Origin: Pseudobutyrivibrio sp.
GTDB taxonomy: Bacteria > Bacillota > Clostridia > Lachnospirales > Lachnospiraceae
NCBI RefSeq assembly: GCF_015057185.1
Contig: NZ_SVEV01000018.1
Span: 1-64,000 of the forward strand
DNA: 64,000 bases
Direction of reading: 5' to 3'
Made by a program: the position numbers and the translations under genes. The notes beneath the pieces were generated by a model, which was not told where the DNA came from, ran no database searches, and saw only the letters and a list, made by a program, of their open reading frames with translations. Positions 9,741 through 56,784 of the stretch are shown here, in pieces (the stretch's first letter is position 1; every line of letters starts with the position of its first letter).

Positions 9741-10280
9741 ATGTCTGTATTATTCGTAAATGCTTGTGTAAGGAAAGAATCAAGAACAAAAAGATTGGCA
9801 GATAAGATATTGGCTGAGATTAATGAGCGTTATGATGAGGTGAAACTAGATGAAATAGTTTTTCCTATAGCCAATGAGGAGTTTTTAAGAAAGCGTGATG
9901 AGCTAATAGCTGCAGGGGATTTTGATAATCCATTGTTTGAGCTTGCTAATCAGTTCGCTGGGGCTGAAACAATTGTAATTGCTACACCATATTGGGATTT
10001 ATCCTTCCCAGCCGCACTAAAGCAATATTTTGAGCAAATTAATGTGGTAGGGATTACGTTTAAGTACAGTCAGGAAGGCATACCACAAGGACTTTGCAAG
10101 GCTAACAAAATCTATTATGTAACAACATCTGGTGGAGATTATGCACCAGATGACTTTGGATATGGTTATGTGAAGGCTCTCGCCCAGGGTTACTATGGTA
10201 TACAGGATATCTCTTTGACAAAGGCTACCGGTCTCGATATTATTGGGGCTGATGTAGATAGCATTTTAAATAGAGTGTAG
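9741..10280 (+). CDS. Flavodoxin-fold NAD(P)H oxidoreductase (azoreductase/quinone reductase type)
   Basis: The 179-residue protein fits the flavodoxin-like fold of PF02525. An N-terminal phosphate-loop segment (NACVRKESRTKRLA, residues 7-20) would bind FMN phosphate, and the conserved ATPYWDLSFPAALKQYFE block near residue 92 contacts the isoalloxazine ring. GLCKANKIYYVTTSGG is the second ring-contacting loop. It probably reduces quinones, azo dyes or flavins with NAD(P)H. A close paralogue lies at 56281-56784 and matches block by block, but lacks the last ten or so residues present here. No separate promoter is evident. Confidence 0.82.
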   Translation: MSVLFVNACVRKESRTKRLADKILAEINERYDEVKLDEIVFPIANEEFLRKRDELIAAGDFDNPLFELANQFAGAETIVIATPYWDLSFPAALKQYFEQINVVGITFKYSQEGIPQGLCKANKIYYVTTSGGDYAPDDFGYGYVKALAQGYYGIQDISLTKATGLDIIGADVDSILNRV

Positions 10281-11436: not shown

Positions 11437-11665
11437 GTCATAAGTTCTTTCTAAAATGAGATTACGATTTAATTATATAAAATCGCAATGAATATAATAA
11501 TTACTAGTAATGGAAATGTAAAGAGGGGCTTATTCTCTAGGGCAGGTTAAGTAATTTTGTGATAACTGCGGACTTAGTATTGAAAAACTTGAAGCTGCAA
11601 AGAAATTTAGATATTTTGTTGACAGGGATAGTGTGTTTTGTTAGTCTAGCTGTAACAATCGAATA
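11437..11665 (+). promoter_or_regulatory. Intergenic region with promoter of the FMN-riboswitch transcript
   Basis: No gene is supported here. TTGACA (11619-11624), a 17-bp spacer and TAGTCT (11642-11647) form a plausible promoter placed right before the riboswitch. A short frame around 11550-11640 contains CDNCGLSIEKLEAAKKF, which may be a remnant of a zinc-ribbon protein but is too short to judge. Confidence 0.5.
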
Positions 11666-11781
11666 ATTCTTCGGGGCAGGGTGAAATTCCCGACCGGCGG
11701 TGATAGTCCGCGACTCGCGAAAGCGACTGATTTGGTGAAATTCCAAAACCGACAGTACAGTCTGGATGGTAGTAGAAGTGA
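11666..11781 (+). ncRNA. FMN riboswitch (RFN element)
   Basis: The conserved RFN blocks are present in order: TTCGGGGCAGGGTGAAATTC, CCGACCGGCGGTGATAGTCC, CGCGA...AGCGACTGATTTGG, TGAAATTCCAAAACCGACAG and GTCTGGATGG..AGAAG. It is followed at 12 nt by an intrinsic terminator, so the switch most likely works by premature termination when FMN is bound. It controls the riboflavin transporter gene ribU and the gene coupled to it. Confidence 0.97.
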
Positions 11782-11793
11782 AATGGTATTATT

Positions 11794-11827
11794 AGGCAAA
11801 GCCCCACGTGGACTTTGCCTTTTTCAT
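11794..11827 (+). terminator. Expression-platform terminator of the FMN riboswitch
   Basis: AGGCAAAG-TCC/CCACGTGGA-CTTTGCCT followed by TTTTC. It lies between the aptamer and ribU and would stop transcription when flavin is plentiful. Confidence 0.88.
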
Positions 11828-11898
11828 TTTACTATTCGATTTATATCCCAAAGAATCCTTCGGTTCCAAAAATATTTTAGAACAGGGAGGAACAAATA

Positions 11899-12543
11899 AT
11901 GTTCAAAAAGAAATTCACAACAAATCAAATCGTACTTGTGGGGATGCTTGCTGCGTTAGCTGGTGTTCTAATGTCCTTGGAAATTTCAGTTCCAATGATG
12001 CCACCATTTTACAAATTCGACTTCAGCGATGTACCAGCAATAGTGGGCTTATTCTTGATGGGACCAGTTGAGGGGGCATTGATAGAAATAATCAAGCTCA
12101 TAATCAAGCTTATTCTATCAGGTACAAACTCAATGTATGTTGGTGAGGTTGTAAATTTAATGGCTATTATCCTATTCATAATTCCTACTTGGATTGTATA
12201 CAAAAGAATGGGACAGACCAAAAGAGCAGCTGCAGTTGCACTTGCTATAAGTGTAGTGATAAGAACAGCGGCAGCCTGCTTTTTAAATGCATTTGTGTCA
12301 TTACCTCTTTACGCAACTGCCATGGGCGTCTCTCTAGATGAGGTGGTTAGAATGGTTGGTGGAGTAAATGCAAAAATTACAAATTTACAAAGCTTTATCA
12401 TCTACGCGACAATACCATTTAATGTTTTGAAGCTATCTATTAATAGCTTTATCGGATATACGGTATATGATAGGGTTGTTGCACTTATGCCAGGCGCTAG
12501 AAACCTTAGAACGGATACAGCTACAGCAAAGGTGGAGGCATAA
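11899..12543 (+). CDS. ribU: Riboflavin ECF transporter substrate-binding component RibU
   Basis: The 214-residue membrane protein carries the RibU hallmarks: an N-terminal region with six predicted helices, and the conserved FYKFDFSDVPAIVGLFLMGP segment followed by a Glu/Lys-containing helix near residues 40-75. It is the S-component that captures riboflavin and works with shared ECF energizing proteins (EcfT, EcfA), which are not next to it. Control by the FMN riboswitch upstream confirms the assignment. The ATG at 11899 follows AGGGAGGAACAAATA. The TAA stop abuts the ATG of the creatininase-like gene, showing that the two form one operon. Confidence 0.95.
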   Translation: MFKKKFTTNQIVLVGMLAALAGVLMSLEISVPMMPPFYKFDFSDVPAIVGLFLMGPVEGALIEIIKLIIKLILSGTNSMYVGEVVNLMAIILFIIPTWIVYKRMGQTKRAAAVALAISVVIRTAAACFLNAFVSLPLYATAMGVSLDEVVRMVGGVNAKITNLQSFIIYATIPFNVLKLSINSFIGYTVYDRVVALMPGARNLRTDTATAKVEA

Positions 12544-13329
12544 ATGGTTGAGGAATATTGGAATCTGTCTAGAATGCAAATGGAGCATCTTGATAGAGAG
12601 AATACTTTGGTTGTTATTCCGCTAGGGGCAATAGAACAGCACGGCAATCAGGCTCCGTTGGGGACAGATAGTATGATTGCTACAGAAATGATAAATAGAG
12701 TGAAAACAGGGTTACAAATGCTGGAAAACCATTCAAAAAATGTTTTGACATTTCCTGTGATACCAGTGGGATTCAGTGTAGAGCATCTCAATTTTTGTGG
12801 TTCTATTTCATTTAAACCTGACACTTACTATAACCTGCTTTACGATATTGTAGAATCCATGAATACCCATGGATTTAAGCACATCGCATTCATGATTTGT
12901 CATGGTGGAAACAGGGCCACTGTTGAAATATTAAGCAGACAGATACGACATGACTTGGGAGTCCATGTTTATTTGCTTTCATCGGGGGCATTTAGTCATC
13001 CTAAGGTGAAGGCTACTATCTCTGAGGGAAACGAAGCAGATTTTCATGGGGGAGAAATGGAAACATCTATGGTTATGGCTATAAATGAAGATGTTGTTGA
13101 TTTGTCCGTCGCTGAGGCTGGTTATTACAGTATGAAAAATGGAAGGTTGAATTTCTTTGGAAGCGTTGCACTTCCATGGATGGGAGAGGATTTTGTAACT
13201 GCTGAGAAGAAGCCTATTGGAATAGGAGGAGACCCAAGTGGTGCAAGTGCAGAAAAAGGAGAAATAATACTTGAAGTAAGTGCAAATGAAATAATAGATG
13301 GGATTTTAGATATATTGGAGCAGATGTAA
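12544..13329 (+). CDS. Creatininase-family amidohydrolase, FMN-riboswitch regulated
   Basis: The 261-residue protein has the family metal-ligand pattern: E31 and H33 in GAIEQHGNQ, D42 in LGTDS, the MICHGGNRA loop near residue 120 and FHGGEMETS near residue 160. Family members are Zn/Mn hydrolases of cyclic or linear amides, including creatininase and the archaeal flavin-pathway formamide hydrolase ArfB. The start codon abuts the ribU stop, with GGTGGAGG inside ribU as ribosome site, so translation is coupled and expression falls under the FMN riboswitch. A flavin-related substrate is therefore likely but not shown; a role in sulfur- or nitrogen-compound use with the next operon is the alternative. 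Confidence 0.87.
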   Translation: MVEEYWNLSRMQMEHLDRENTLVVIPLGAIEQHGNQAPLGTDSMIATEMINRVKTGLQMLENHSKNVLTFPVIPVGFSVEHLNFCGSISFKPDTYYNLLYDIVESMNTHGFKHIAFMICHGGNRATVEILSRQIRHDLGVHVYLLSSGAFSHPKVKATISEGNEADFHGGEMETSMVMAINEDVVDLSVAEAGYYSMKNGRLNFFGSVALPWMGEDFVTAEKKPIGIGGDPSGASAEKGEIILEVSANEIIDGILDILEQM

Positions 13330-13400: not shown

Positions 13401-13530
13401 AAAAGGTTCTATACTGATAAAAATTTGAAGAGTGGTGAATATGTTCTCTTAAAAAAGTGCGGTTAGAACTGACTAGACAACTAGAGGTTCAAAATCACAG
13501 TTTTATTACTGTGATTTTGGCCTTTTTTTT
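13401..13530 (+). promoter_or_regulatory. Structured leader with terminator before the ABC/PLP-enzyme operon
   Basis: Between the creatininase gene and the next operon there is a region with mutually exclusive pairings. GTTCTA (13406-13411) can pair with TAGAAC (13464-13469), enclosing an AAGAG/CTCTT hairpin (13428-13432 with 13446-13450). Alternatively GAAC (13466-13469) pairs with GTTC (13487-13490) around a CTAG-N4-CTAG stem. A strong terminator follows: AAAATCACAG (13491-13500) pairs with CTGTGATTTT (13509-13518), then GGCC and eight T. I do not recognise it as a known riboswitch class; FMN, TPP, SAM, ykkC and T-box motifs were looked for and are absent. Confidence 0.6.
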
Positions 13531-13566: not shown

Positions 13567-14625
13567 ATGAAGAAAAAATTGTTAAAAAGCATTATTGCAT
13601 TGGCATTGGGAACAAGTTTGATAGCGGGGTTGGTCGGATGTGGTAGTAACGCATCTAGCAGCGAGACAGAGATTAAAGATGAACAGACTGCAACTGCCAA
13701 GGCAGAGGAAGATACAACTAGTGATAGTGGAGAAACTATTGAGGTACATTTGGGTGATCAACCATCATTCTTTATTTTAAAAATAGCAGAATACAATGGC
13801 TATTTTGAGGAAGAGTTTGCAGGAACAGGGGTAAACATCGTAGTAGATAATTTTGTAAATCAAGGCTCTGCGATTATTGAAGCCATGAATGCAGGGGATG
13901 TACAACTTGGAGTACTCGGTACTATGCCATTTGTAACAGCTGATGCTAATGGAAGTGGATTTGTTGGTATTTCTAGTGTCAATCTTTCAATTGATGGATT
14001 TAAGCTTTATGCAGGAAAGGACACAGGAATTAAGACAGTAAACGATTTTGCTGGTAAGAAAATTGCTGTAAAGTTTTCATCAAATGAGCACGAGATGCTT
14101 TTAACATTACTTGCAAATGCAGGGTTAACAGAGAACGATGTAGAAATTATCAATATGTCTGCAGCTGACAGTCTCAGCTCACTTATTTCAGGTGATGTTG
14201 ATGGAGCAATTTTAAAAGGGGATCAATTAGATGCAGCAAATGCGAGTGGGGCAACAATTGTAGCAGATAATAGTGAATCAGGAATCATCGAAAATCTTTT
14301 AATTGGAAGACCTGATTTTGTAGAAGAGCATCCAGAAGTAGTTGAGGGTGTATTAAGAGTTCTTGAGAGAACAAAGCAGTGGATTGATGAAAATCCAGAA
14401 GAGACAGTAAACATCTTTGTTGAATTGACAGATACAGATGCGACAACAGCTCAGACAAGCTTTGAATCACGTACACGTTCTATTAGTATTGATGACGACA
14501 AATTTGTAGCTCCTATCGAGAGAACAATTAATTTCTTAAAGGATCAGGGTGAAATCGATGATTCTGTACAGATTGAGGATATCATTGATAAGAGCTTTTA
14601 TGAGAATTCAGGAATATCAGAATAA
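13567..14625 (+). CDS. ABC transporter substrate-binding lipoprotein (SsuA/TauA/NrtA-like)
   Basis: The start at 13567 (MKKKLLKSIIALALG) follows TAGGAGGG; the in-frame ATG at 13531 directly follows the T-tract of the terminator and is not used. The 352-residue product has a lipoprotein signal with lipobox LVGC (Cys25), a Ser/Glu-rich linker, then a binding domain beginning IEVHLGDQPSFFILKIAEYN. That segment and LGVLGTMPFVTADANG are typical of the sulfonate/nitrate/taurine/thiamine-precursor class. It would capture a small ligand outside the cell for the permease at 15861 and ATPase at 17731. The ligand is unknown. Confidence 0.87.
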   Translation: MKKKLLKSIIALALGTSLIAGLVGCGSNASSSETEIKDEQTATAKAEEDTTSDSGETIEVHLGDQPSFFILKIAEYNGYFEEEFAGTGVNIVVDNFVNQGSAIIEAMNAGDVQLGVLGTMPFVTADANGSGFVGISSVNLSIDGFKLYAGKDTGIKTVNDFAGKKIAVKFSSNEHEMLLTLLANAGLTENDVEIINMSAADSLSSLISGDVDGAILKGDQLDAANASGATIVADNSESGIIENLLIGRPDFVEEHPEVVEGVLRVLERTKQWIDENPEETVNIFVELTDTDATTAQTSFESRTRSISIDDDKFVAPIERTINFLKDQGEIDDSVQIEDIIDKSFYENSGISE

Positions 14626-14652
14626 TAAGAATTGGAAAGTTGAGATAGAGTA

Positions 14653-15864
14653 ATGGCATTAACAAAAAGCACTATAAATAAGCTTTATTGCCCAAAATGC
14701 GGCAATACATATTCTGCAGATGAGGTTCACCAGTTGTGTGAATGTGGTTCTCCACTTTTAGTAGAGTACGATTTAGAGAAAGCTAAGGAGACATTAACTA
14801 AGGAGAATCTAAAGAATAGGTCAAAATCCTTATGGAGATATGAGGAACTTTTGCCTGTAAAGGATACAGAGAACATTGTCAGCTTAGGTGAAGGCTTCAC
14901 ACCTCTTATTCCATTACCAAATGTGGGCAGGAAAAATGATATTCCTAATCTCTTAATGAAGGATGAGGGAATAATACCGACAGGCACATTTAAAGCAAGA
15001 GGAGCTGCAGTTGGTGTATCGAAAGCTAAGGAATTAGGTGTGAAAGAGTTGGCTATGCCAACAAATGGAAATGCAGGAGCCGCTTGGTCTGTTTATAGTG
15101 CAAGAGCGGGAATTAAGGCAAATATTATTATGCCTGAGGATGCGCCTAAAATTACTAGAAATGAGTGCGCGGCAACAGGGGCTCAATTGTATTTAGTGAA
15201 GGGGTTAATTAGTGATTGCGGAAAAATAGTGGGAGCGTCTCTTAAATCTAATGGTTGGTTTGATGCTTCTACACTTAAAGAGCCATATCGAATTGAAGGC
15301 AAAAAGACAATGGGTCTAGAAATAGCGGAGCAATTGGAGTTTGAGTTGCCAGATGTAATTATATATCCAACAGGCGGAGGCGTAGGCATTATAGGAATCT
15401 ATAAGGCGTTAAACGAATTAAAGGAAATTGGGCTTGTGCAGGGTGAATTGCCTAGATTAGTTGCAGTTCAGGCAGAGCATTGTTCTCCTATCGTAAAGGC
15501 GTTTGAGGAGCATAAGGATGCATCGGAATTCTATGAGGATTCCCATACAATCGCTTTCGGTATTAATGTACCTAAGGCATTGGGAGACTTCCTTGTATTA
15601 AAGAGCATATATGAAACAAACGGAGCCGCTGTTGCTGTTACAGATGATGAAATTATAGAGTCTCTAAGAGAGTTGGCAACAGAGGAGGGGACATTTGTGT
15701 GTCCTGAAGGGGCAGCCACTTTTGCAGCTGCAAAGAAGCTTCGCCAGCAAGAATTCATAAAGGCTAATGATCGTGTTGTTCTTTTAAATACAGGGGCGGG
15801 GATTAAATATCCAGACACATTAAAGGTTGAAGTGCCTTACTTGGAAAAGGATGCTGTGTTATGA
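14653..15864 (+). CDS. Threonine-synthase-like PLP lyase (possible cysteate-synthase-type paralogue)
   Basis: The 403-residue protein has an N-terminal zinc ribbon (C13, C16, C29, C31) and a type-II PLP fold with the cofactor lysine at K114 in TGTFKARGAAV, the TNGNAGAAWSVY asparagine loop near residue 137 and the glycine-rich YPTGGGVGI phosphate loop near residue 237. These are the features of threonine synthase. It lies between the genes of an ABC importer, not among threonine-biosynthesis genes, so it may act on another substrate: related enzymes use phosphohomoserine, or phosphoserine plus sulfite (cysteate synthase). A beta- or gamma-replacement/elimination on an imported amino acid is the best guess. 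The stop overlaps the permease start by 4 bp. Confidence 0.82.
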   Translation: MALTKSTINKLYCPKCGNTYSADEVHQLCECGSPLLVEYDLEKAKETLTKENLKNRSKSLWRYEELLPVKDTENIVSLGEGFTPLIPLPNVGRKNDIPNLLMKDEGIIPTGTFKARGAAVGVSKAKELGVKELAMPTNGNAGAAWSVYSARAGIKANIIMPEDAPKITRNECAATGAQLYLVKGLISDCGKIVGASLKSNGWFDASTLKEPYRIEGKKTMGLEIAEQLEFELPDVIIYPTGGGVGIIGIYKALNELKEIGLVQGELPRLVAVQAEHCSPIVKAFEEHKDASEFYEDSHTIAFGINVPKALGDFLVLKSIYETNGAAVAVTDDEIIESLRELATEEGTFVCPEGAATFAAAKKLRQQEFIKANDRVVLLNTGAGIKYPDTLKVEVPYLEKDAVL

Positions 15865-16628
15865 AAAAGAATGTAAAAGTTCAAATGACTATAATCGCTT
15901 GGATAGTTCTGGTTTTAATACTCCTGCTTTGGCAGGTAGCTGGAAGCAAGGGATGGATTAGTATTGCAATTTTATCAAGTCCAACTCGTATATTTGAAAA
16001 ATTTATACAAATGCTTGGAGACGGGTCGCTGACGCGACACGTCTTCACTAGCCTTGGTCGTGTATTAAAGGGATTCTGTGTAGGTGCAGGTATAGGCTTG
16101 GTTTTAGGACTATTAATAGGATTAAGTAAAAGACTGGAAGCATTTTCGGATTTATTTATTGGTTTGCTCCGTCCAATCCCCCCAATAGCGTGGATTCCTT
16201 TATTAATTCTATGCTTAGGAATTGGCGAGGAGTCCAAGGTAACAGTTATTGCTATTGGAAGCTTCTGGCCAATGCTTTTGGATACGATTCATGGTGTTAA
16301 AAGCACAGATAAGGCTCTGCTAGAGCTAGGGAATGTATTAGAGAAAAAGAAGAAGACTGTAGTCTTAAAAATCATATTGCCATCAGCAGTACCAGCCATA
16401 TTTACAGGTGCAAGACAGGCTATTAGTAGAGCCTGGTCATGTGTTGTAACAGCTGAAATGATAGCGGCAAGTAGTGGTACAGGCTACCTGATTCAATATG
16501 CAAGAGAGCTGTCACAACCGGCTTTAATGTTTGTAGGTGTTGCTATGATAGGGCTGGTTGGGTTACTTATAGATTTAATTATGATGCAACTGGAAAAAAG
16601 ACTGTTGAGTTGGAATATTTCTAATTAG
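15861..16628 (+). CDS. ABC transporter permease (SsuC/TauC-like)
   Basis: The 255-residue protein has six hydrophobic helices and the EAA-type cytoplasmic loop near residues 155-175 (ALLELGNVLEKKKKTVVLKI followed by PSAVPAIFTGAR), which docks on the ATPase. It belongs to the binding-protein-dependent transport family with SsuC and TauC (LRPIPPIAWIPLLILCLG is a family hallmark). ATGA overlap with the preceding lyase gene shows translational coupling. It works with the lipoprotein at 13567 and the ATPase at 17731. Confidence 0.9.
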   Translation: MKKNVKVQMTIIAWIVLVLILLLWQVAGSKGWISIAILSSPTRIFEKFIQMLGDGSLTRHVFTSLGRVLKGFCVGAGIGLVLGLLIGLSKRLEAFSDLFIGLLRPIPPIAWIPLLILCLGIGEESKVTVIAIGSFWPMLLDTIHGVKSTDKALLELGNVLEKKKKTVVLKIILPSAVPAIFTGARQAISRAWSCVVTAEMIAASSGTGYLIQYARELSQPALMFVGVAMIGLVGLLIDLIMMQLEKRLLSWNISN

Positions 16629-16646
16629 CTAGAGTGAGGATAATAA

Positions 16647-17717
16647 ATGTTACTTAAGATAAAGACGCCTGAAGAATTTTATTGCGACAGGAATCTTATT
16701 TCAAAGGTTGGAGAGATTTGTTCGAGATATGGAAGGGGGGCATACATAATTGCCGGTAAAACGGCTTATTCTGCTGTTTTTGATGACCTGGAAGGGGGAC
16801 TTAAAGCCTATCACATTGATTATTCTGTAAATATTATGGAAGGTTACCCAACTTACGAAAAGGTCATTGCCAACTCAAGCAAGGCATACATAGAGAATGC
16901 AGATTTTGTAATTGGCATAGGAGGTGGCAAAATCTGTGATGTGGCAAAAGCTGTTGCAAATATGAGGAATATTCCGGTTGTAATGGTACCTACCGTAGCA
17001 GCAACATGCGCATGTTGGGCAGCAAGATCTGTTATTTACAAGGATGACGGTAACTTTGACCAGATTCTTTGGAATAAGAATAATCCTAATATAATTGTTG
17101 CAGATTTAGATGTGCTTACGAATGCACCTAAGAGATATTTGGCAGCCGGTATCCTTGATACTTTAGCTAAATGGTATGAGTTTAAGCCTTTAATAGATTC
17201 AGCTCCAGAGGATGTGGTTTTGCGCCAGGATGTGGCAATAGCAAAGCTAGCTTATGACATTATTTTGGAACATGGGCTGAAAACATATAAGGGGGATGCA
17301 ACACTTGAGGAATTTGACCAGGTAATAGAGGCAATATTCTTTTTGGCTGGTGCCAGCGGAAGCTTCGCAAATGGCAAAGCATTCAGAGGATTTGCTCATT
17401 CATATTATTATGCATCTACTCATATACCAAGTAGTAGGCACAGATTGCATGGTGAGAAGGTCGCATTTGGGCTTTTGGTTCAGGCTATTTTGAAAAAGGA
17501 CCAGGCGACAATAGAAGAATTGTTAGATTTACTACAGCAATATGACCTAAATGATACCCCTTATGATTGGGAGGATGCTAATATCGAAAATACGATTTTT
17601 GATATTAGCAATTATATTATTAAGGAATCGCCCGTTGTGGTGGAAAAAGGATTCGTAAAGTCGGTAGAGGAATGCGCAGATGCTATTGAAACAGCATCTA
17701 ATTACATTAGGGCATAA
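16647..17717 (+). CDS. GldA-type metal-dependent dehydrogenase (iron-containing alcohol dehydrogenase superfamily)
   Basis: The 356-residue protein has an N-terminal nucleotide-binding half with the FVIGIGGGKICDVAKAVA motif (near residue 89) and VPTVAATCACWA, and a C-terminal metal-binding half. Likely metal ligands are D in AAGILDTLAKWYEF and two His in the GFAHSYYYASTHIP...RLHGEKVAFG region. This is the glycerol-dehydrogenase branch, which uses NAD with Zn or Fe on polyols and hydroxy-ketones. Its place within the transporter operon suggests it reduces or oxidises an intermediate derived from the imported compound. The substrate is unknown; sequence alone does not support glycerol as the substrate. 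Confidence 0.83.
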   Translation: MLLKIKTPEEFYCDRNLISKVGEICSRYGRGAYIIAGKTAYSAVFDDLEGGLKAYHIDYSVNIMEGYPTYEKVIANSSKAYIENADFVIGIGGGKICDVAKAVANMRNIPVVMVPTVAATCACWAARSVIYKDDGNFDQILWNKNNPNIIVADLDVLTNAPKRYLAAGILDTLAKWYEFKPLIDSAPEDVVLRQDVAIAKLAYDIILEHGLKTYKGDATLEEFDQVIEAIFFLAGASGSFANGKAFRGFAHSYYYASTHIPSSRHRLHGEKVAFGLLVQAILKKDQATIEELLDLLQQYDLNDTPYDWEDANIENTIFDISNYIIKESPVVVEKGFVKSVEECADAIETASNYIRA

Positions 17718-17730
17718 TAAAAGGATATTT

Positions 17731-18522
17731 ATGGAACAATCAAATATTAAGGGAAAACACATTAGCATTAATCATGTAAAAAAAGAGTACAAGATAGAGA
17801 AGGATAATATTCAAGTGCTTAAGGATATAAATCTGGAAATAGAGTCTGGAGACATTGTTAGTATTATCGGAGGAAGTGGTTGTGGAAAGAGTACACTTCT
17901 TAGGTTGATAGCAGGACTAGAAAAACCAAGTGATGGTACTGTAAGTCTAGACAATGTTCAAGTTGAAAAACCATCATTGGATGTTGGCGTTTTATTTCAG
18001 GAATCTAGACTTTTGCCATGGGAAAGCGCATGGAAAAATATACTTTTTGGTCTTCCAGAGGGATTTGATAAAAAGCAAGGTAGAGAATTAGTGGACAGGT
18101 ATATAAAACTTGTTGGGTTGCAGGGCTTTGAAAAAGCTCTTCCTAGCCAATTGTCTGGAGGTATGCAAAAGCGTGTAGCTATTGCTAGAACACTTATCAA
18201 TAGCCCTCATGTATTGCTGTTAGATGAGCCATTTGGCGCGCTAGATGCCTTTACCAAGATGAATTTGCAGGAAGAGATAGTGCGAATTTGGAAAGAGCAG
18301 AAAATGACCACAGTGCTTGTTACTCACGATATAGATGAGGCAATTTTTATGGGAAATAAAGTCATAATAATGTCTGCAAAGCCAGGAGTTATTAAGACAG
18401 TTATCGATGTGGAATTACCTGAACCAAGAAGTAGGGTTGGTGATGACTTCGAATATATAAAGAAAAAAGTGTATAAAGAATTCTTTGGAGATAATCGAGT
18501 AGTGGAGGATTACGTGATTTGA
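17731..18522 (+). CDS. ABC transporter ATP-binding protein (SsuB/TauB-like)
   Basis: The start at 17731 (MEQSNIKGKHISINHVKK) has AAAAGGA 6-12 nt upstream; a longer frame from 17680 lies inside the preceding gene. The 263-residue protein has Walker A GGSGCGKST (K53), Q-loop in VLFQESRLLPWESA, signature LSGGMQKR, Walker B VLLLDEPFGALDA and the H-loop LVTHDIDEA. The RLLPWESAWKN Q-loop is characteristic of the nitrate/sulfonate/taurine subgroup. It powers import with the permease at 15861. Its TGA overlaps the TTG start of the next gene. Confidence 0.93.
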   Translation: MEQSNIKGKHISINHVKKEYKIEKDNIQVLKDINLEIESGDIVSIIGGSGCGKSTLLRLIAGLEKPSDGTVSLDNVQVEKPSLDVGVLFQESRLLPWESAWKNILFGLPEGFDKKQGRELVDRYIKLVGLQGFEKALPSQLSGGMQKRVAIARTLINSPHVLLLDEPFGALDAFTKMNLQEEIVRIWKEQKMTTVLVTHDIDEAIFMGNKVIIMSAKPGVIKTVIDVELPEPRSRVGDDFEYIKKKVYKEFFGDNRVVEDYVI

Positions 18523-19601
18523 GTATTGAAAATGCACAATACAAAAGAATTCCTGTGGAAGAATACATTCGACTATCGAATGATATTTTTATTACGTTAG
18601 GGTTTGATAAAAGTGATGCAGATAAAATTACAGATGTTCTTTTAAAAGCAGATTTATTTGGGGTTGAGAGTCATGGAATATCTCGAATCCAAAAATATAT
18701 AAAATTGATTTCCAATAATATAGTAGATATTCATGCTAATCCGGAATTAGTTTTTGAAACACCAACATCGGCGGTGTATGATGCTAAGTCAGCTATGGGG
18801 CAGTTGGTTTCCATTCAGGCGATGGATAAGGCTATATCTAAAGCTAAGGAACATGGGATTGGGCTGGTACAGGTTAGAAATTCTAATCATTTTGGAATCG
18901 CTGGATATTATGTTTTGAAAGCTCTTGAGGAGGGGTTAATTGGAATCTGTATGACAAATACAATGGCAATAATGGTTCCAACTTTTGCGGCAGAGGCACT
19001 TTTGGGCTCCAATCCTATAGCATTTGGCTTTCCTAGTGGGGGCAAGCCTTTTCTTTTTGATGGGGCTACTACAGTTATCACACGAGGAAAGGTAGAGTTG
19101 TATAAAAAGCTAAATAAGGAGCTTCCGTATGAATGGACAGTTGACTCAGTAGGAGAGGTTACATATACACCTGAAGTTGTGCTGGAAAATATTAGTGAGA
19201 AAAAGGGCGGAGGAATACTGCCTGTAGGTGGTGTTGGAGAGGAACAGGCAGGATATAAGGGCTATGGATTTGCCTATATATGCGAGCTTTTGACAAGCGT
19301 TCTCTCAGGTGGTGTTAATTCTATCCATAAACAGGACAAAGGTGATACAAGTCATGCTTTTTATGCTATTGACCCAGCGTTATTTGGAAATCCAGAAGAG
19401 ATTAAACTAAGAGCTAAGACATTGGCTGAGGAAATACATTCTTCTAAAAAGGCTAAGGGACAGCCCTATATTTTCATTGCTGGAGAGAAGGAATTTGAAA
19501 GAGAAGCATATGATAGAGAGCATGGGGTTGTACTCAGTAATGAAAGCATAGCAGAGCTAAATAAAATAGCCGAAGAATTAAAGATTAAGGGATTGAGCTA
19601 A
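18519..19601 (+). CDS. LDH2/MDH2-family NAD(P)-dependent 2-hydroxyacid dehydrogenase
   Basis: The 360-residue protein belongs to the malate/L-lactate/sulfolactate dehydrogenase family with the unusual non-Rossmann fold. Signatures are the DLFGVESHGISRI segment (residues 46-58, catalytic His in SHG), RNSNHFGIAGYY near residue 124 and LLGSNPIAFGFPS near residue 163. Family members interconvert 2-oxoacids and 2-hydroxyacids, or imino acids and amino acids; ComC sulfolactate dehydrogenase is one. The start is TTG, overlapping the ATPase stop (TTGA), with GTGGAGG at 18502-18508. The next gene's ATG directly abuts its stop. A 2-oxoacid made by that aminotransferase would be a natural substrate. Confidence 0.87.
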   Translation: MSIENAQYKRIPVEEYIRLSNDIFITLGFDKSDADKITDVLLKADLFGVESHGISRIQKYIKLISNNIVDIHANPELVFETPTSAVYDAKSAMGQLVSIQAMDKAISKAKEHGIGLVQVRNSNHFGIAGYYVLKALEEGLIGICMTNTMAIMVPTFAAEALLGSNPIAFGFPSGGKPFLFDGATTVITRGKVELYKKLNKELPYEWTVDSVGEVTYTPEVVLENISEKKGGGILPVGGVGEEQAGYKGYGFAYICELLTSVLSGGVNSIHKQDKGDTSHAFYAIDPALFGNPEEIKLRAKTLAEEIHSSKKAKGQPYIFIAGEKEFEREAYDREHGVVLSNESIAELNKIAEELKIKGLS

Positions 19602-20786
19602 ATGAGTATAAAATTTGCAAGTAGAATAAATGATTTGAAGCCCTCTGGAATAAGACTAATAAATGAAAAGGCTCTAAAATTGGAGCGTCAGGGAAAAAAG
19701 GTCTATCATTTTGAATTGGGAAGACCAGATTTTGATACACCGGATTATATAAAAAAGGCGTGTATTGCTAGTATAGAAAACGGAGATGTTTATTACACAT
19801 CAAATTTTGGAAAGCAGGATCTAAGACAAGAAATTGCTGACTATTTGAGTACCAAGAAAAATATACCAGCCGCTGCAGACAACATTCTTGTAACGGTTGG
19901 TCTTGCAGAGGCTATTTTTGATGTCTTCACAGTTTTGCTGGAAAAGGGTGATGAGATTCTTGTTCCAGATCCAGTGTGGATGAATTATATCAATATCCCT
20001 AAATTGCTAGGGGCAACGCCAGTCACATATAACCTTAAGGAAGAAAATGATTATCAACCAGACATTGAAGAAATCGAAAAGAAAATAACAATTAGAACTA
20101 AAGCAATTGTTATAGTTTCCCCACACAATCCAACTGGAAGCATGCTTAGAGAAGAAAATGTGAGAAAGATTGCTGAACTGGTAAGAAAATATGATTTGGT
20201 TGTAATTGATGATGAGGTATATGAGCGATTGACATATTCTGAGGAAAGACATATTAGCATTGCTTCTTTGCCAGAAATGTTTGAAAGAACAGTAACTTTA
20301 AATGGCTTTTCAAAAGCCTACTCCATGACAGGCTGGAGAATAGGCTATGTGGCTGCATCTTCGGAGTGGATTCAAGCGTTGAATAAGATTCATCAGATTA
20401 ATACAACAAGTGCTACATCATTTGTGCAGACGGCTGCAATCGTAGCATTGAGGGATGAAGATACAGAAGTTGAGGATATGCGCCTTGAATACCAAAAGAG
20501 ACGAGATTTTGTTTATGAGAGAATCAATCAGATTCAAGGAATTAGTTGTTCAAAGCCACAAGGAGCCTTTTACTCATTTATCAATATAAAGGAGTTGAAA
20601 GTATCAGCTGAAGAATTTGTACATTATCTTTTAGATAATTATGGGATTGCATTAGTCCCGGGAACTGTATTTGGAGACAATGGTAATGGATATATAAGGA
20701 TGTCTTTCGCCAACAGCCTGGAAGAAATTCAGGCGGGATTAGACTTGCTAGAAAAAGCTGTAAAAAATCTAGTTGTGCGCAATTAA
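19602..20786 (+). CDS. Class I/II PLP-dependent aminotransferase
   Basis: The 394-residue protein is an aspartate-aminotransferase-type enzyme. FELGRPDFDTPDYI at the N-terminus, YYTSNFGKQDLRQEI, VSPHNPTGSM (substrate carboxylate region), VIDDEVYERL, and the PLP lysine K238 in NGFSKAYSMTGWRIGY are all intact, as is the C-terminal YIRMSFANS containing the substrate-binding Arg. It would move an amino group between an amino acid and a 2-oxoacid. It follows the LDH2-type gene with no gap, which makes a two-step amino acid to 2-oxoacid to 2-hydroxyacid conversion likely. Last gene of the transporter operon as far as spacing shows. Confidence 0.9.
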   Translation: MSIKFASRINDLKPSGIRLINEKALKLERQGKKVYHFELGRPDFDTPDYIKKACIASIENGDVYYTSNFGKQDLRQEIADYLSTKKNIPAAADNILVTVGLAEAIFDVFTVLLEKGDEILVPDPVWMNYINIPKLLGATPVTYNLKEENDYQPDIEEIEKKITIRTKAIVIVSPHNPTGSMLREENVRKIAELVRKYDLVVIDDEVYERLTYSEERHISIASLPEMFERTVTLNGFSKAYSMTGWRIGYVAASSEWIQALNKIHQINTTSATSFVQTAAIVALRDEDTEVEDMRLEYQKRRDFVYERINQIQGISCSKPQGAFYSFINIKELKVSAEEFVHYLLDNYGIALVPGTVFGDNGNGYIRMSFANSLEEIQAGLDLLEKAVKNLVVRN

Positions 20787-20829: not shown

Positions 20830-22008
20830 ATGGAGAATTTTACATTTTATTCACCTACATATTTTGCATTTGGTAAGAATATGGAGAGTGAAGCTGGAAA
20901 ACTGGCTAAAAGATTCGGGGCAACTAAAATTTTAATTCATTACGGTGGTGGAAGTGTTGTTCGTTCTGGACTATTAGACAGAGTGAAAAAGGCATTAGAT
21001 TCAGAGGGGCTTGATTATGTAGAACTTGGTGGTGTACAGCCAAATCCTAGAAGCGGATTGGTTTACCAGGGAATTGACCTTTGCAAAAAAGAGAAGGTTG
21101 ATTTTGTTTTGGCCGTAGGCGGTGGTAGTGTTATTGATTCATCCAAGGCAATTGCTGCTGGTGTATGCTATGACGGTGATTTCTGGGATTTTTATTCTGG
21201 AAAATATATTGAGCAGGCACTTCCTATTGGAACAATTCTTACAATCTCTGCAGCCGGTAGTGAAGGAAGTCCAGATTCAGTTATCACAAACGAGGATGGA
21301 ATGTACAAGCGTGGCGCAACAGGGGATGCTATTAGACCAAAGTTTAGTATTCTTAATCCTGAATTGACTCAGACTTTACCAGCATATCAGACTGCTTGTG
21401 GTATCACAGATATTATGGCTCATCTTTATGAGAGATATTTGACTAACTCAAAGGAAGTTGAGGTTACAGACAGATTAATAGAGGCGCTTCTTTTGACAAT
21501 GGTACATGAAGGACCTAGAGTAATTGAAGATCCAAATAACTATGAGGCTAGAGCTAATATTATGTGGGCTGGAATGATGGCCCATAACAATGCTGTTGGT
21601 GTTGGAAGAAGCCAGGATTGGAATAGCCACAATATTGAGCATGAGCTTTCAGCTAAGTATGATTGTGCGCACGGAGCAGGTTTGGCGGTAACTCTTCCAG
21701 CGGTATTTACATATGTAATGAATCATGATGTCATGAGATTCGCAAAGGTTGCTACTCGCGTATGGGGATGTCAGATGGATTTTGATCATCCTGAGGTAAC
21801 TGCCAAAGCAGGAATCGAGGCACTTAGAAACTTCTTTATTTCTATTGGAATGCCAAAGAATTTTGAAGAGTTAGGTGCAAAGAAAGAGGATATTCCTGAA
21901 TTGGTTAGCGTACTCTGCGATGGTGATGGAAGACCTGGATATATAGAAGGTTTTGTAAAGCTTGATAAGACAGATTGCACTAAGATTTATGAGTTAATGG
22001 CAAACTAA
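20830..22008 (+). CDS. NADH-dependent butanol dehydrogenase-like iron-containing alcohol dehydrogenase
   Basis: The 392-residue protein is of the BdhA/YqhD type: ENFTFYSPTYFAFGKNME at the start, NAD(P)-binding VLAVGGGSVIDSSKAIAAG near residue 97, and metal-binding segments with D in TACGITDIMAHLYERY and two His in NIEHELSAKYDCAHGAG. It reduces aldehydes such as butyraldehyde to alcohols using NAD(P)H and a divalent metal. AAAGGAGGAGG precedes the ATG. It may belong to the operon before it (43-bp gap) but has its own promoter-like sequence, and its function as a general aldehyde reductase needs no link to that operon. Confidence 0.92.
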   Translation: MENFTFYSPTYFAFGKNMESEAGKLAKRFGATKILIHYGGGSVVRSGLLDRVKKALDSEGLDYVELGGVQPNPRSGLVYQGIDLCKKEKVDFVLAVGGGSVIDSSKAIAAGVCYDGDFWDFYSGKYIEQALPIGTILTISAAGSEGSPDSVITNEDGMYKRGATGDAIRPKFSILNPELTQTLPAYQTACGITDIMAHLYERYLTNSKEVEVTDRLIEALLLTMVHEGPRVIEDPNNYEARANIMWAGMMAHNNAVGVGRSQDWNSHNIEHELSAKYDCAHGAGLAVTLPAVFTYVMNHDVMRFAKVATRVWGCQMDFDHPEVTAKAGIEALRNFFISIGMPKNFEELGAKKEDIPELVSVLCDGDGRPGYIEGFVKLDKTDCTKIYELMAN

Positions 22009-22024
22009 TAAATATCGTATTATT

Positions 22025-22075
22025 AAATCCTAGGATTTTTGTGTGAAAAATTGCAAAGGTCCTAGGATTTTTGTT
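22025..22075 (+). terminator. Terminator after butanol dehydrogenase-like gene
   Basis: AAATCCTAGGA and TCCTAGGATTT (11-bp arms) enclose a 24-nt loop and are followed by TTGTTATCTT. A terminator of the same plan, including a similar AATTGC(A/G)AAG loop end, lies at 62260-62310. Confidence 0.75.
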
Positions 22076-22113: not shown

Positions 22114-22998
22114 ATGTCTATATTAGATAAGAAAATATATTATTTCATATCTGTTGTTGAAGAAGGTTCTTTTTCAGCGGCTGCCAAAAAGCAATTTGTT
22201 TCACAGGCTAATCTTTCAAAGCAAATTGCGCAATTGGAGAAAGAAATAGGTACAGAGCTTTTTGACAGAAATGGGTACAGACCTGTTTTAACAGATGCGG
22301 GAAAGTATTTTTATGATGAGCTTTGCGGCATTAAGAAAAAGGAAGATGAATTGTTTAATGGACTGAATAAATTTGTCCCAAGTGCTGTAAAAGCTGGCTT
22401 TACAGGTCTTTTTGAAAATAGAGAATTGATAGAGGCAATTCGCAAATATCAGGATGGAAAATCAGGTCATGAAATCGAATTGAACAGATACGATTTTGAG
22501 GGTTGTGCTAAAGCTCTTGTAGAGGAGCAGATAGATATAAGCTTTGGGCTTGAATCAATATTTAAGAGATATAGAAATGTTAAATATGAGATTTTACATG
22601 GGTATGATATTTGCTTTGTATGTACGGAAAAGCACCCGTTGGCTAAGGCAAAGTCTGTGACTGTTGATCAGATAAAGGATGAGGGCTTAGTCATTTTATC
22701 AAAAAAATTTAGCTCAGATTATTATAATGACTTTATGGAATCTTGTAAGAAGGATGGATATGTACCTAAAGTCAATGTGGAAGTAAACTCTTTTGATGAG
22801 TTGATTCTCTCAGTCTGCTTAGGCGAGGGTGTAGCTTTATGTGGTGAGAGCAGTATCAGAGAAGAGGGACTTATTGCCATACCTATTGAAAAAACAAATC
22901 ATTCGCCAAACTATGTTATGGCTTATAGAAATGAGCCACTGAAAACTAATGTAGAAAATTTTATAAAATATATAAGGGAATACTTTGCAACTCTATAA
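22114..22998 (+). CDS. LysR-family transcriptional regulator
   Basis: The 294-residue protein has an N-terminal LysR helix-turn-helix (YYFISVVEEGSFSAAAKKQF, then SQANLSKQIAQLEKEIGTEL, residues 9-55) and a periplasmic-binding-like effector domain (about 90-290). It lies between the butanol dehydrogenase-like gene and the two flavoenzyme genes, all on the same strand, with terminators on both sides, so it is a separate transcription unit. The flavoenzyme pair downstream is the likeliest target, though this is only positional evidence. The stop codon lies inside the stem of the following terminator. Confidence 0.92.
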   Translation: MSILDKKIYYFISVVEEGSFSAAAKKQFVSQANLSKQIAQLEKEIGTELFDRNGYRPVLTDAGKYFYDELCGIKKKEDELFNGLNKFVPSAVKAGFTGLFENRELIEAIRKYQDGKSGHEIELNRYDFEGCAKALVEEQIDISFGLESIFKRYRNVKYEILHGYDICFVCTEKHPLAKAKSVTVDQIKDEGLVILSKKFSSDYYNDFMESCKKDGYVPKVNVEVNSFDELILSVCLGEGVALCGESSIREEGLIAIPIEKTNHSPNYVMAYRNEPLKTNVENFIKYIREYFATL

Positions 22999-23108: not shown

Positions 23109-25034
23109 ATGAGCTATGAACACGTAATGAGTCCAATACAGATTGGACCAATGTACCTGAAAAACAGAGTTTCTTTTACACCGGTTTGGCCTTCTTTTGC
23201 AACTGCTGATGGTCATGTAAACAGAGAACTCATGGAATGGGTTAGGGATATTGTAAAAGGCGGAGTTGCTTGTATCAATATCGGTTGTGGTTGTGTAAAC
23301 AGAAATCTTCCACCATACGTTACACATCTTCTTCGTATGAGTGATGAGAGCGTTGTTAATGAGATGACAATGCTTTCTGATTTATGTCATATGTACCAGT
23401 GTAAAATCGGTATGGAGCTTTTTGCTATTAATATTGATGGAGGAAGCTTTGAAGACAGAGAAACTGGCAAAGATAAAGTCGTTGTAGAGCTTGATCCTTC
23501 ATATATGACTAAGGAACAGATTAAGGACTATATTGAGGATTTTGCACTTGCTGCTGAAAGAGCAATGAGATGCGGTGTGGATAGTCTTGTAATTCATGGT
23601 GCACATGGACAGCTTCCAGGTTGTTTCTTAAATAAAGTAATTAATGAAAGAACTGACGAGTATAGTGCAGATACTATTGAGAATGCATCTCGTTTTACTG
23701 TAGAGCTTCTTACTGCAATCAGAGAAAAGGTTGGAAATAAGCTTGCAATTGAATATAGAATTAACGCCAACGATATGGTCCCAGGTTCTCCATCAGTTGA
23801 TGAGGTTATTGAGTTTGCAAAAATGATTGAGGACAAGATTGATCTTCTTCATGTGTCTAGAGGACTTCACTCTGTTCAGCACTTAGCACCATATATCAAC
23901 CAGCCTCTTTATATTCCACACGGAATTAATATTGAAGATGCTGCTAAGTTCAAGAAGGCTCTCAATATCCCAGTTACTGTAGTAGGTTCAGTAACACTTG
24001 ACCAAGCAGAGGAGTACATCAAGAATGGCGATGCAGATATGGTTTCTATGGCTAGAGGTCTTATGGCTGATCCAAATCTTGTAAAGAATGCAAAGAATGG
24101 TTGCGCAGATAAGACTCGTCCATGTATCAGATGTAATCAATGTATCCAGAGAACACATTACCTTCTTGCTCCAGTACGTTGCTCAGTAAATGCTGAAATG
24201 GGTATGGAAACTCTTTACATGAACATCGGCACAACAACACCTAAGAAGGTAGCAGTAATCGGTGGTGGTCCTGGCGGAATCGAAGCCGCAAGAACAGCAG
24301 CTGAAAGAGGACATTCCGTTGATCTTTATGAGAAGAGCGATATTCTCGGCGGTGTATTAAACATGGCAGCAGGTCCTGATTTTAAGGCAGATATTAAGAA
24401 CTATCTTGAGTGGACAATTCGTTCTATCAAGGAGCAGAAGAATGTAAATATTCACATGAACACAGAGGTTACTCCAGAAATGTTGGCTGGCAAGGGTTAT
24501 GATGTGGTTATTGTAGCTATCGGTTCTGAGCCAATCATTCCTGGATTTGTAAAGTCTAATTCAAAGGTTGTATGGGTTGGTGATGTTGAGTGTCATCGTG
24601 TAGAGGTTGGACAGAATGTTGTCATTGTTGGTGCAGGTCTTACAGGTTGTGAGTCAGCACTTGCACTTGCTAATGAAGGCAAGAATGTAACACTTATTGA
24701 TATGATTCCAGCCGACGATTTTGGTCGTGGTGGAGCTAAGTTTAACCAGATAGCTTTAATGAATCAGTTGAATGAGAAGAATATCACAAAGATTGGTGAA
24801 GTTAAGCTTGCTAGTGAAGGAGATACAGTTTCATTCGAGAAGCTTGATGGAACTAAGCTTGATATTGAATGCGACAATATTATTCTTTCTCTTGGTGTTA
24901 GACCAAATCAGGATAAGGTAAACGCATTTAATAGTTTAGATGCTGATGTTGTATTTATCGGTGATTGCAACACAAGAGTAGGTACATTGTTTAATGCGGT
25001 ACATACAGCTCATGAAGCAGCTTCTATCATCTAA
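23109..25034 (+). CDS. Old-Yellow-Enzyme-type FMN/FeS/FAD enoate reductase
   Basis: The 641-residue protein has three parts: an N-terminal OYE TIM barrel (about 1-335) binding FMN; a four-cysteine cluster motif for a 4Fe-4S centre (C339, C342, C345 and C358, in RPCIRCNQC...VRC); and C-terminal FAD and NAD(P) Rossmann domains (VAVIGGGPGGIEAA, about 385; VVIVGAGLTGCESA, about 510). This is the architecture of 2,4-dienoyl-CoA reductase, 2-enoate reductases (FldZ) and bile-acid BaiCD/BaiH. It probably reduces the double bond of an unsaturated acid or ketone with NAD(P)H, possibly as an electron sink. It is followed by a paralogue 13 bp away. Confidence 0.9.
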   Translation: MSYEHVMSPIQIGPMYLKNRVSFTPVWPSFATADGHVNRELMEWVRDIVKGGVACINIGCGCVNRNLPPYVTHLLRMSDESVVNEMTMLSDLCHMYQCKIGMELFAINIDGGSFEDRETGKDKVVVELDPSYMTKEQIKDYIEDFALAAERAMRCGVDSLVIHGAHGQLPGCFLNKVINERTDEYSADTIENASRFTVELLTAIREKVGNKLAIEYRINANDMVPGSPSVDEVIEFAKMIEDKIDLLHVSRGLHSVQHLAPYINQPLYIPHGINIEDAAKFKKALNIPVTVVGSVTLDQAEEYIKNGDADMVSMARGLMADPNLVKNAKNGCADKTRPCIRCNQCIQRTHYLLAPVRCSVNAEMGMETLYMNIGTTTPKKVAVIGGGPGGIEAARTAAERGHSVDLYEKSDILGGVLNMAAGPDFKADIKNYLEWTIRSIKEQKNVNIHMNTEVTPEMLAGKGYDVVIVAIGSEPIIPGFVKSNSKVVWVGDVECHRVEVGQNVVIVGAGLTGCESALALANEGKNVTLIDMIPADDFGRGGAKFNQIALMNQLNEKNITKIGEVKLASEGDTVSFEKLDGTKLDIECDNIILSLGVRPNQDKVNAFNSLDADVVFIGDCNTRVGTLFNAVHTAHEAASII

Positions 25035-25047
25035 AAAGGAGGAACAC

Positions 25048-56238: not shown

Positions 56239-56280
56239 ATAACAAGAAGATTTGGAATCTTTTATGAAGGAGGCATGAGT

Positions 56281-56784
56281 ATGACTTTATATATTAATGC
56301 ATGTGTAAGAGAGAAATCACGAACTGAAATACTATCAAACGAGTTGCTTTCTAAATTAGGGGAATATGAAGAAGTAAAACTAGAAAATATTGATTTTCCG
56401 AAGACAAATGAAGCTTTTTTAAAGAAAAGAGATTCTCTTATAGCCTCTCGTACATTTGATGACCCTATGTTTGATTTGGCTCGCCAGTTTGCAAAGGCAG
56501 AAACAATTGTTATTGCTGCGCCATATTGGGATTTATCTTTTCCGGCTATGCTTAAACAGTATATAGAGCATATTAATGTACTGGGTATCACTTTCGAATA
56601 CACACCAGAAGGTATTCCAAAAGGATTATGTAGAGCTAGTAGGCTGTATTATGTAATGACAGCTGGTGGCACTTATGTCCCAGAAGAATTCGGCTTCGGA
56701 TACATAAAATCTCTTGCTGAAAATTTCTATGGAATTAGAGATATAAAATTAATAAAAGCCACAGGACTTGATATATATAGTTAA
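56281..56784 (+). CDS. Flavodoxin-fold NAD(P)H oxidoreductase (paralogue of 9741)
   Basis: The start is set at 56281 (MTLYINACVREKSRTEILSN), seven bases after AAGGAGG; the ATG at 56275 is too close to that site. The 167-residue protein closely resembles the one at 9741, sharing NACVR-KSRT, AETIVIA-PYWDLSFPA-LKQY and GITF-Y-PEGIP-GLC. It ends ten or so residues earlier (after ATGLDIYS), which may be natural. It is 42 bp after the YitT gene and may be cotranscribed. The role is as for its paralogue: FMN-dependent reduction of quinones or similar compounds. Confidence 0.82.
   Translation: MTLYINACVREKSRTEILSNELLSKLGEYEEVKLENIDFPKTNEAFLKKRDSLIASRTFDDPMFDLARQFAKAETIVIAAPYWDLSFPAMLKQYIEHINVLGITFEYTPEGIPKGLCRASRLYYVMTAGGTYVPEEFGFGYIKSLAENFYGIRDIKLIKATGLDIYS

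Follow-up and report, generated by a model that had tools for sequence, protein, structure and literature searches.

The seven genes that run along the plus strand from 13567 to 20786 of a Pseudobutyrivibrio sp. contig (NZ_SVEV01000018.1; contig 50 of the 62 that make up the 3.25 Mb genome, its 64,000-nucleotide stretch being called the window here) appear, on balance, to form an operon for scavenging sulfur, together with some carbon, from a three-carbon sulfonate without oxygen, by means of a lyase that would cleave cysteate. In order, the genes encode a substrate-binding protein (SBP), a lyase of the PALP fold dependent on pyridoxal phosphate (PLP), a permease, a GldA-like dehydrogenase, an ATPase, an LDH2-family dehydrogenase and an aminotransferase; the host bacterium is probably an anaerobe. 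In the proposed pathway, the SsuABC-type importer would take up sulfolactate or cysteate, or a sulfonate related to them, the LDH2 enzyme would oxidize sulfolactate to sulfopyruvate, the aminotransferase would turn sulfopyruvate into cysteate, and the threonine-synthase-like lyase would split cysteate into pyruvate, ammonia and sulfite. The sulfite would then pass to the sulfite reductase-like and O-acetylhomoserine sulfhydrylase-like enzymes of a second gene run headed by the same leader, and the GldA-like enzyme, with an iron-containing alcohol dehydrogenase (Fe-ADH) encoded next to the operon, might provide a connection between the pathway and dihydroxypropanesulfonate or an aldehyde. This series fits because the LDH2, aminotransferase and PLP lyase chain is accompanied by an importer of the sulfonate class and by a sulfur leader. 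The original prediction, made from the letters alone, had proposed transamination and 2-oxoacid reduction, or the reverse; that chemistry largely stands, as a route through 2-hydroxyacid oxidation, transamination and PLP chemistry, the direction of flux being, like every substrate, inferred. Gene context favours cysteate breakdown over cysteate synthesis.

The lyase matches an NCBIfam family named threonine synthase (NF006050, PRK08197) with 659 bits against a cut-off of 303, falls just short of the thrC model TIGR00260 (154 bits, cut-off 167) and scores 69.1 bits against the 324.9 required by the archaeal cysteate synthase model TIGR03844, so that the kinship with cysteate synthase raised in the original prediction does not extend to membership of that archaeal family; no CuyA-named model is among the NCBIfam matches listed (25 of 40). 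A separate ThrC, the single gene with the ThrC N-terminal domain, lies on contig 14 of the same genome. A scan of genome contigs with the lyase confirmed 588 loci, the best 80 of which were analysed, and thrC was searched for in the genomes of 43 of these: a ThrC match at E 1e-20 is present in all 43, and a ThrC over the cut-off, other than the lyase itself, in 41. In a Pelotomaculum metagenome-assembled genome (MAG) ThrC is present only as two neighbouring fragments, which score 132 and 126 bits. In a quick LG+G4 tree of 121 rows, for which the program flagged long branches meeting, the 81 lyase rows (the window plus the 80 loci of the scan) fall in a single clade with a Shimodaira-Hasegawa-like approximate likelihood ratio (SH-aLRT) support of 100 and a stem of 0.93, apart from 23 of the 24 ThrC rows; the remaining one, L180, groups instead with clostridial paralogues of about 35 per cent identity. 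These 24 rows are the alignable part of 40 fetched ThrC loci, and the long E. coli-like type, to which the genome's own ThrC belongs, contributed none. The clade is present in eleven phyla among the tree rows. A class-wide search of 391 genomes with the lyase returned one further clade member, at 58 per cent, the other matches standing at 31-37 per cent, and the viral contigs scanned with it held zero relatives.

The residues tell the same two groups apart. For this comparison 20 ThrC rows (L180 and three long-branch rows having been dropped) were set against the 81 lyase rows. The PLP lysine, K114, is conserved in all rows of both groups, and positions 135-137, 141-145, 206-210, 242-245, 307-312 and 386, invariant in ThrC, are replaced in at least 77 of the 81 lyase rows. 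Before a P-x-R motif, positions 206-210 read S-T-L-K-E in the lyase clade and N-S-(V)-N in ThrC, and positions 242-245 read G-G-V-G and N-A-G-N, respectively. Ser155 of the Thermus threonine synthase, which binds the substrate phosphate, falls in the first of these stretches. Judged by its separate clade, its replaced residues and the presence of ThrC elsewhere in the genome, the window lyase is not a threonine synthase and lies outside canonical ThrC, in agreement with the expectation of the original prediction that it would not group with true threonine synthases.

The gene run is more than a chance arrangement, because its four-gene core of SBP, lyase, permease and ATPase recurs, arranged as in the window, at three further loci, all from MAGs (L062, L063 and L067, one of them titled goat rumen); in L062 and L063 the core is followed by an aspartate/cysteate-type racemase gene, and the sequence of L067 ends before that point. 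In Clostridium algifaecis the order is permease, ATPase, lyase, SBP, a nickel-pincer (NPN) isomerase of group 22 (513 bits, cut-off 400) and an LDH2 gene, whose product is 44 per cent identical to that of the window and scores 271.9 with the L-sulfolactate dehydrogenase model NF040650. Genes for PAPS (3'-phosphoadenosine 5'-phosphosulfate) reductase and for CysJ- and CysI-type proteins stand directly 5' of the lyase in Planomicrobium, and other direct neighbours include RidA, SDF symporters and polar-amino-acid-type ATP-binding cassette (ABC) permeases. These neighbour lists take in 69 lyase genes (those of the window, of L140 and of 67 scan loci); the other 13 scan loci, L063 among them, are missing because longer antisense frames hid the lyase gene.

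A paired control was made by tblastn on all 80 loci, rather than on lists of open reading frames, setting lyase loci against ThrC loci of the same genomes (40 of the 43) within about 10 kb and with identical queries. An SsuC-type permease was found at 12 of 40 lyase loci and SsuA at nine, neither at any of the 40 ThrC loci; racemase, SDF symporter and sulfite reductase were each found at four and the NPN isomerase at two, again with none at ThrC loci, and RidA at six against one, although the counts for most families are descriptive, because all except LDH2 and SsuABC, the latter named already in the original prediction, were picked after the lyase loci had been inspected. A link between the lyase and sulfonate import with sulfite use is thus found for a minority of lyase loci, and the tie that the original prediction drew between a sulfonate-class importer and a threonine synthase paralogue is supported by the SsuC-type counts and by the recurring core. 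On the tree the SsuABC label is carried by 12 rows and calls for eight changes, at least six of them by starred branches, so the link has been gained or lost repeatedly; L083 and L086, with SsuC-type genes some kilobases off, were not counted as SsuABC there, and L138 and L140 apparently represent one genome twice. Clusters that combine SsuABC-type, radical S-adenosylmethionine (SAM) and nitrogenase-like genes with the lyase clade or with the GldA-like clade were observed in L138/L140, L033 and L034, and an organosulfur role seems likely for them. In L088, from Tumebacillus avium, the lyase gene lies 3' of an open frame of 3299 codons, perhaps a non-ribosomal peptide synthetase.

The importer genes are of the sulfonate class by family. 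The four solved chains matched by the SBP are TauA, SsuA or nitrate-type binding proteins, and the protein is called SsuA-type only, because its score with the SsuA family model TIGR01728 falls closely below the cut-off; the permease and the ATPase likewise stay below the cut-offs of the SsuABC/TauABC-type models. For the LDH2 enzyme, L-sulfolactate dehydrogenase is the best-scoring NCBIfam model and the ComC structure 2x06 is among the matches in PDB; taken with the points given below, the evidence on its substrate is neutral. An LDH2 search of 145 genomes, the window's own included, gave no other match at E 1e-60 above 49 per cent. The 19 LDH2 loci of about 4 kb each, with five larger neighbourhoods, contained no other operon gene apart from one ATPase of 28 per cent, and the use of LDH2 as a guide to orthologous operons was dropped for that reason. 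Matches to the GldA-like protein at E 1e-40 occur in six other genomes among 391; the two nearest relatives (38 per cent) adjoin SsuABC-type genes and, by eye, nitrogenase-like genes, and one of them also adjoins an aminotransferase gene. Xsc was also considered, and was set aside with a best match in the genome of 293 bits against a cut-off of 676.

Several observations weigh against the cysteate route, the late choice of most control families among them. The loci that supplied queries match themselves in the control (L095 for SsuC, L133 for SsuA), GlnP and MetY are about equally common at lyase and ThrC loci (four against three and two against three), and 28 of the 40 lyase loci have no SsuC-type permease nearby, so the clade may not be uniform in role. 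No other sequence searched showed all seven genes in this order, and of the recurrence expected in the original prediction it is the core and other subsets that were seen again. The LDH2 protein reaches 226.6 bits with NF040650, less than half of the cut-off of 500, and its nearest solved chain is a malate dehydrogenase (1v9n). Neither the GldA-like enzyme nor Fe-ADH has a clear step in the pathway, both being unplaced, and T. avium has no second ThrC match over the cut-off. The racemases add a further caution. Four of those adjoining the lyase exceed the cut-off of 190 of the model named cysteate racemase CuyB, NF052483 (283.8, 288.3, 212.9 and 193.1), but in the reverse test 76 of the 398 genomes searched in the window's phylum passed that cut-off as well, and within 1.5 kb flanks the lyase clade stood beside the racemase in one of the 30 best NF052483 loci, a second of them holding a PALP of 30 per cent. 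This equivalog looks over-broad; the name cysteate racemase is for that reason weak evidence, and CuyB was dropped as a strong argument. The lyase-linked racemases are taken only as a sign of an aspartate-type amino acid racemase.

The leader, too, points to sulfur metabolism. The 17-mer GACTAGACAACTAGAGG, searched with up to one mismatch, has two copies in the 3.25 Mb genome, both exact, and its reversed control none. The second copy lies on contig 14 (22191-22207, minus strand), 5' of metK, and the same-strand run after metK contains radical SAM genes (by eye), genes for an SsuA-type SBP, SsuC and SsuB, YeiH-, MetY- and AsrC-like genes, all below the cut-offs of their models, and, by eye, ThiF/JAMM-like genes. 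At E 1e-20, exactly two genes of the genome match the SsuA family, and each leader-headed run contains one of them. Because this leader is common to the metK run with its second SsuA-type importer, the operon is probably part of a sulfur regulon. The leader has a fold z-score of -3.24, and its hairpin is predicted to be a terminator and possibly an attenuator. A 15-mer core occurs at 24 places, spread over 16 of the 29 genomes searched in the genus, and its reversed control at none; wherever a gene was seen 3' of these leaders (by eye, duplicates being entered once) it was metK, a radical SAM gene, an SBP gene or, once, a pyridoxamine-oxidase-like gene, and one locus showed none. In the order, the 18-mer with N at one position occurs in four of 295 genomes, all of the Pseudobutyrivibrio genus. 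In an alignment of 19 of the 21 distinct leaders, two with short stems being left out, the stem covaries: 33 cells changed on both sides, a value that none of 500 shuffles reached. That the 15-mer is constant in this alignment follows from its use in finding the leaders. No Rfam family matched the leader at gathering score, and only two chance-level matches were returned. The C. tyrobutyricum cluster that contains the lyase has a one-mismatch leader copy with its own terminator, 5' of a NifH-like gene; this assignment rests on the terminator and the place, because with up to two mismatches and a looser filter the reversed control gave four matches.

Two further observations concern the leader. 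In L221, L229 and L236, of the same genus, the peptides encoded by leader frames 5' of the 17-mer contain runs of cysteines (CCQSLCCC, CMSLCCC), as would be fitting for an attenuator that responds to cysteine. Copies of the 17-mer leader also occur in three phage contigs (L214 at 9585, L215 at 4525 and L216 at 8185), with a terminator-like hairpin where read; they lie just 3' of a small open reading frame whose product resembles the YezD/DUF2292-like protein that precedes metK in the genus.

Other explanations have been weighed against cysteate breakdown. The lyase could instead be a synthase that combines O-phosphoserine with sulfite into cysteate, from which the aminotransferase and the LDH2 enzyme would make sulfopyruvate and sulfolactate for storage or for a sulfonated product; such a role is considered improbable. 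The archaeal cysteate synthase, a threonine-synthase-like PALP that makes cysteate, lends it a precedent through its weak match to the lyase, and in Planomicrobium and Planococcus the lyase adjoins genes of sulfate assimilation, which yields sulfite. A sulfonolipid paper (PMC11211663) also names a cysteate synthase from bacteria. The score of 69 bits, with a cut-off of 325, speaks against synthesis nevertheless, as do the importer type of the transporters linked to the lyase and the RidA neighbours, which would fit an elimination releasing 2-aminoacrylate. An ordinary threonine synthase caught in an unrelated catabolic operon would agree with the NCBIfam family name and its high score and with the single exception of T. 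avium, but it is a very improbable reading in view of the separate clade, the changed residues and the presence of another ThrC both here and in 41 of 43 lyase genomes.

A different acidic amino acid, for instance 3-hydroxyaspartate, is also an unlikely substrate of the lyase; the operon would in that case use a sulfur-free hydroxy- or oxo-acid. The SDF symporters for dicarboxylates and acidic amino acids, the aspartate-type racemase, RidA and the polar-amino-acid-type ABC permeases found nearby would all be consistent with such a substrate, which would leave the repeated linkage to SsuABC, sulfite reductase and sulfate assimilation unexplained, and the sulfur leader as well. Rather unlikely, too, is the use of a different organosulfur compound, such as a thioether or a C2 or C4 sulfonate, where the substrate of the GldA-like enzyme would be an aldehyde or a diol, as in the nitrogenase-like clusters of other genomes. 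The surroundings of the two nearest GldA-like relatives recall clusters of that kind, and in C. tyrobutyricum a member of the lyase clade is linked with nitrogenase-like, radical SAM and SsuABC genes; the unit of the window has no nitrogenase-like or radical SAM gene, however, and its LDH2 enzyme and aminotransferase would best suit an alpha-hydroxy, alpha-oxo and alpha-amino series.

The layout of the unit was read directly in the sequence (Table 1), and the overlaps given in the original prediction proved exact. The SBP start codon is an ATG preceded by AGGAGGG; the lyase and permease genes overlap by ATGA (15861-15864) and the ATPase and LDH2 genes by TTGA (18519-18522), LDH2 starting with TTG, and the LDH2 stop at 19601 directly abuts the ATG of the aminotransferase gene. 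The open frame of the ATPase opens at 17680, within the GldA-like gene, and its start is most likely at 17731, as suggested by the ribosome-binding site. Since a gap of only 43 bases and a strong ribosome-binding site precede the Fe-ADH gene, the operon may extend to 22008, with that gene as its last. On the 5' side, the energy-coupling factor (ECF) transporter and creatininase genes (11899-13329) were considered as members and excluded: they are a separate unit, because their own FMN (flavin mononucleotide) riboswitch (11663-11781) heads them and the leader terminator lies between. Base composition showed no sign of foreign origin.

Table 1. Features of the leader, the operon and its 3' flank (positions in the window)
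Feature	Position	Strand	Basis
17-mer GACTAGACAACTAGAGG of the leader	13471..13487	+	2 exact copies in the genome at up to 1 mismatch
Predicted intrinsic terminator hairpin followed by T8, 46 bases 5' of the SBP start	13489..13520	+	Terminator scan, fold z-score, covariation
SsuA-family substrate-binding lipoprotein	13567..14625	+	TIGR01728 155.9 bits (cut-off 163.5); solved chains
PLP-dependent protein of the PRK08197 'threonine synthase' family; proposed cysteate sulfo-lyase	14653..15864	+	NF006050, tree, residues
SsuC/TauC-type permease	15861..16628	+	PF00528; SsuC, SaoP and TauC models best, all below cut-off
GldA-like (Fe-ADH family) dehydrogenase	16647..17717	+	PF00465; glycerol dehydrogenase model 207 bits (cut-off 336)
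SsuB/TauB/NrtD-type ABC ATPase	17731..18522	+	PF00005; ntrCD model 230 bits (cut-off 292)
LDH2-family 2-hydroxyacid dehydrogenase; proposed sulfolactate dehydrogenase	18519..19601	+	PF02615; NCBIfam and PDB matches
Class I aminotransferase; proposed sulfopyruvate/cysteate transaminase	19602..20786	+	PF00155; archaeal aspartate aminotransferase model 375 bits (cut-off 550)
Iron-containing alcohol dehydrogenase, possibly the last gene	20830..22008	+	PF00465; gap and ribosome-binding site
LysR-type candidate regulator, after an inverted repeat	22114..22998	+	Open reading frame; family by eye

The LysR-type gene is a candidate regulator. Between it and the Fe-ADH gene lies a long inverted repeat (22025-22070) with AAATCCTAGGATTT arms, and 3' of it (23109-26931) are two tandem genes resembling old yellow enzyme or enoate reductase, by eye. 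Elsewhere in the window, two similar small flavodoxin-like reductase genes were assigned by eye (9741-10280 and 56275-56784). From 11663 to 13329, the FMN riboswitch, an ECF S component, of riboflavin type by context, and the creatininase-family gene form one unit, a pairing of creatininase family and riboflavin-type importer without evident explanation.

The proposed pathway can be placed beside several known systems. CuyA is of the D-cysteine desulfhydrase type, whereas here a threonine-synthase-like PALP would cleave cysteate and import would be of the SsuABC type. The reaction series itself, from sulfolactate through sulfopyruvate and cysteate to pyruvate, ammonia and sulfite, is that of the CuyA pathway and the third pathway described in PMC11382572. 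With ThrC the window lyase shares the fold family and the PLP lysine, and with ComC and SlcC, the sulfolactate dehydrogenases, the LDH2 enzyme shares the family of ComC, set off by its low score and by its nearest solved chain. All three subunit types of the SsuABC/TauABC importers are present, but no SsuD- or TauD-like oxygenase is among the genes of the unit. The cysteine-responsive attenuators of mycobacteria use polycysteine leader peptides; in the genus, similarly, a leader with a terminator precedes sulfur genes and some leader frames are rich in cysteine, although here a fixed 18-mer lies between the leader frame and the terminator. In the open-licence PubMed Central literature, among the titles and abstract openings listed, no assignment of the PRK08197 lyase clade to cysteate was found, nor any paper joining cysteate, sulfo-lyase and threonine synthase. 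It may be, although the balance lies somewhat against it, that the PRK08197 clade represents a second class of cysteate sulfo-lyase with an independent evolutionary origin and that the 18-base leader with its terminator is an undescribed sulfur-responsive attenuator tying metK and sulfonate-import operons into one regulon of the genus.

The enzymes known to scavenge sulfonate sulfur, SsuD and TauD, need oxygen, and the sulfonate-sulfur supply of strict anaerobes is for that reason poorly understood. If the proposed pathway is true, it would provide a short oxygen-free route to sulfonate sulfur; the widely used label of threonine synthase (PRK08197) is suggested to be wrong for the lyase clade, and the leader motif offers a handle for finding the rest of the sulfur regulon.

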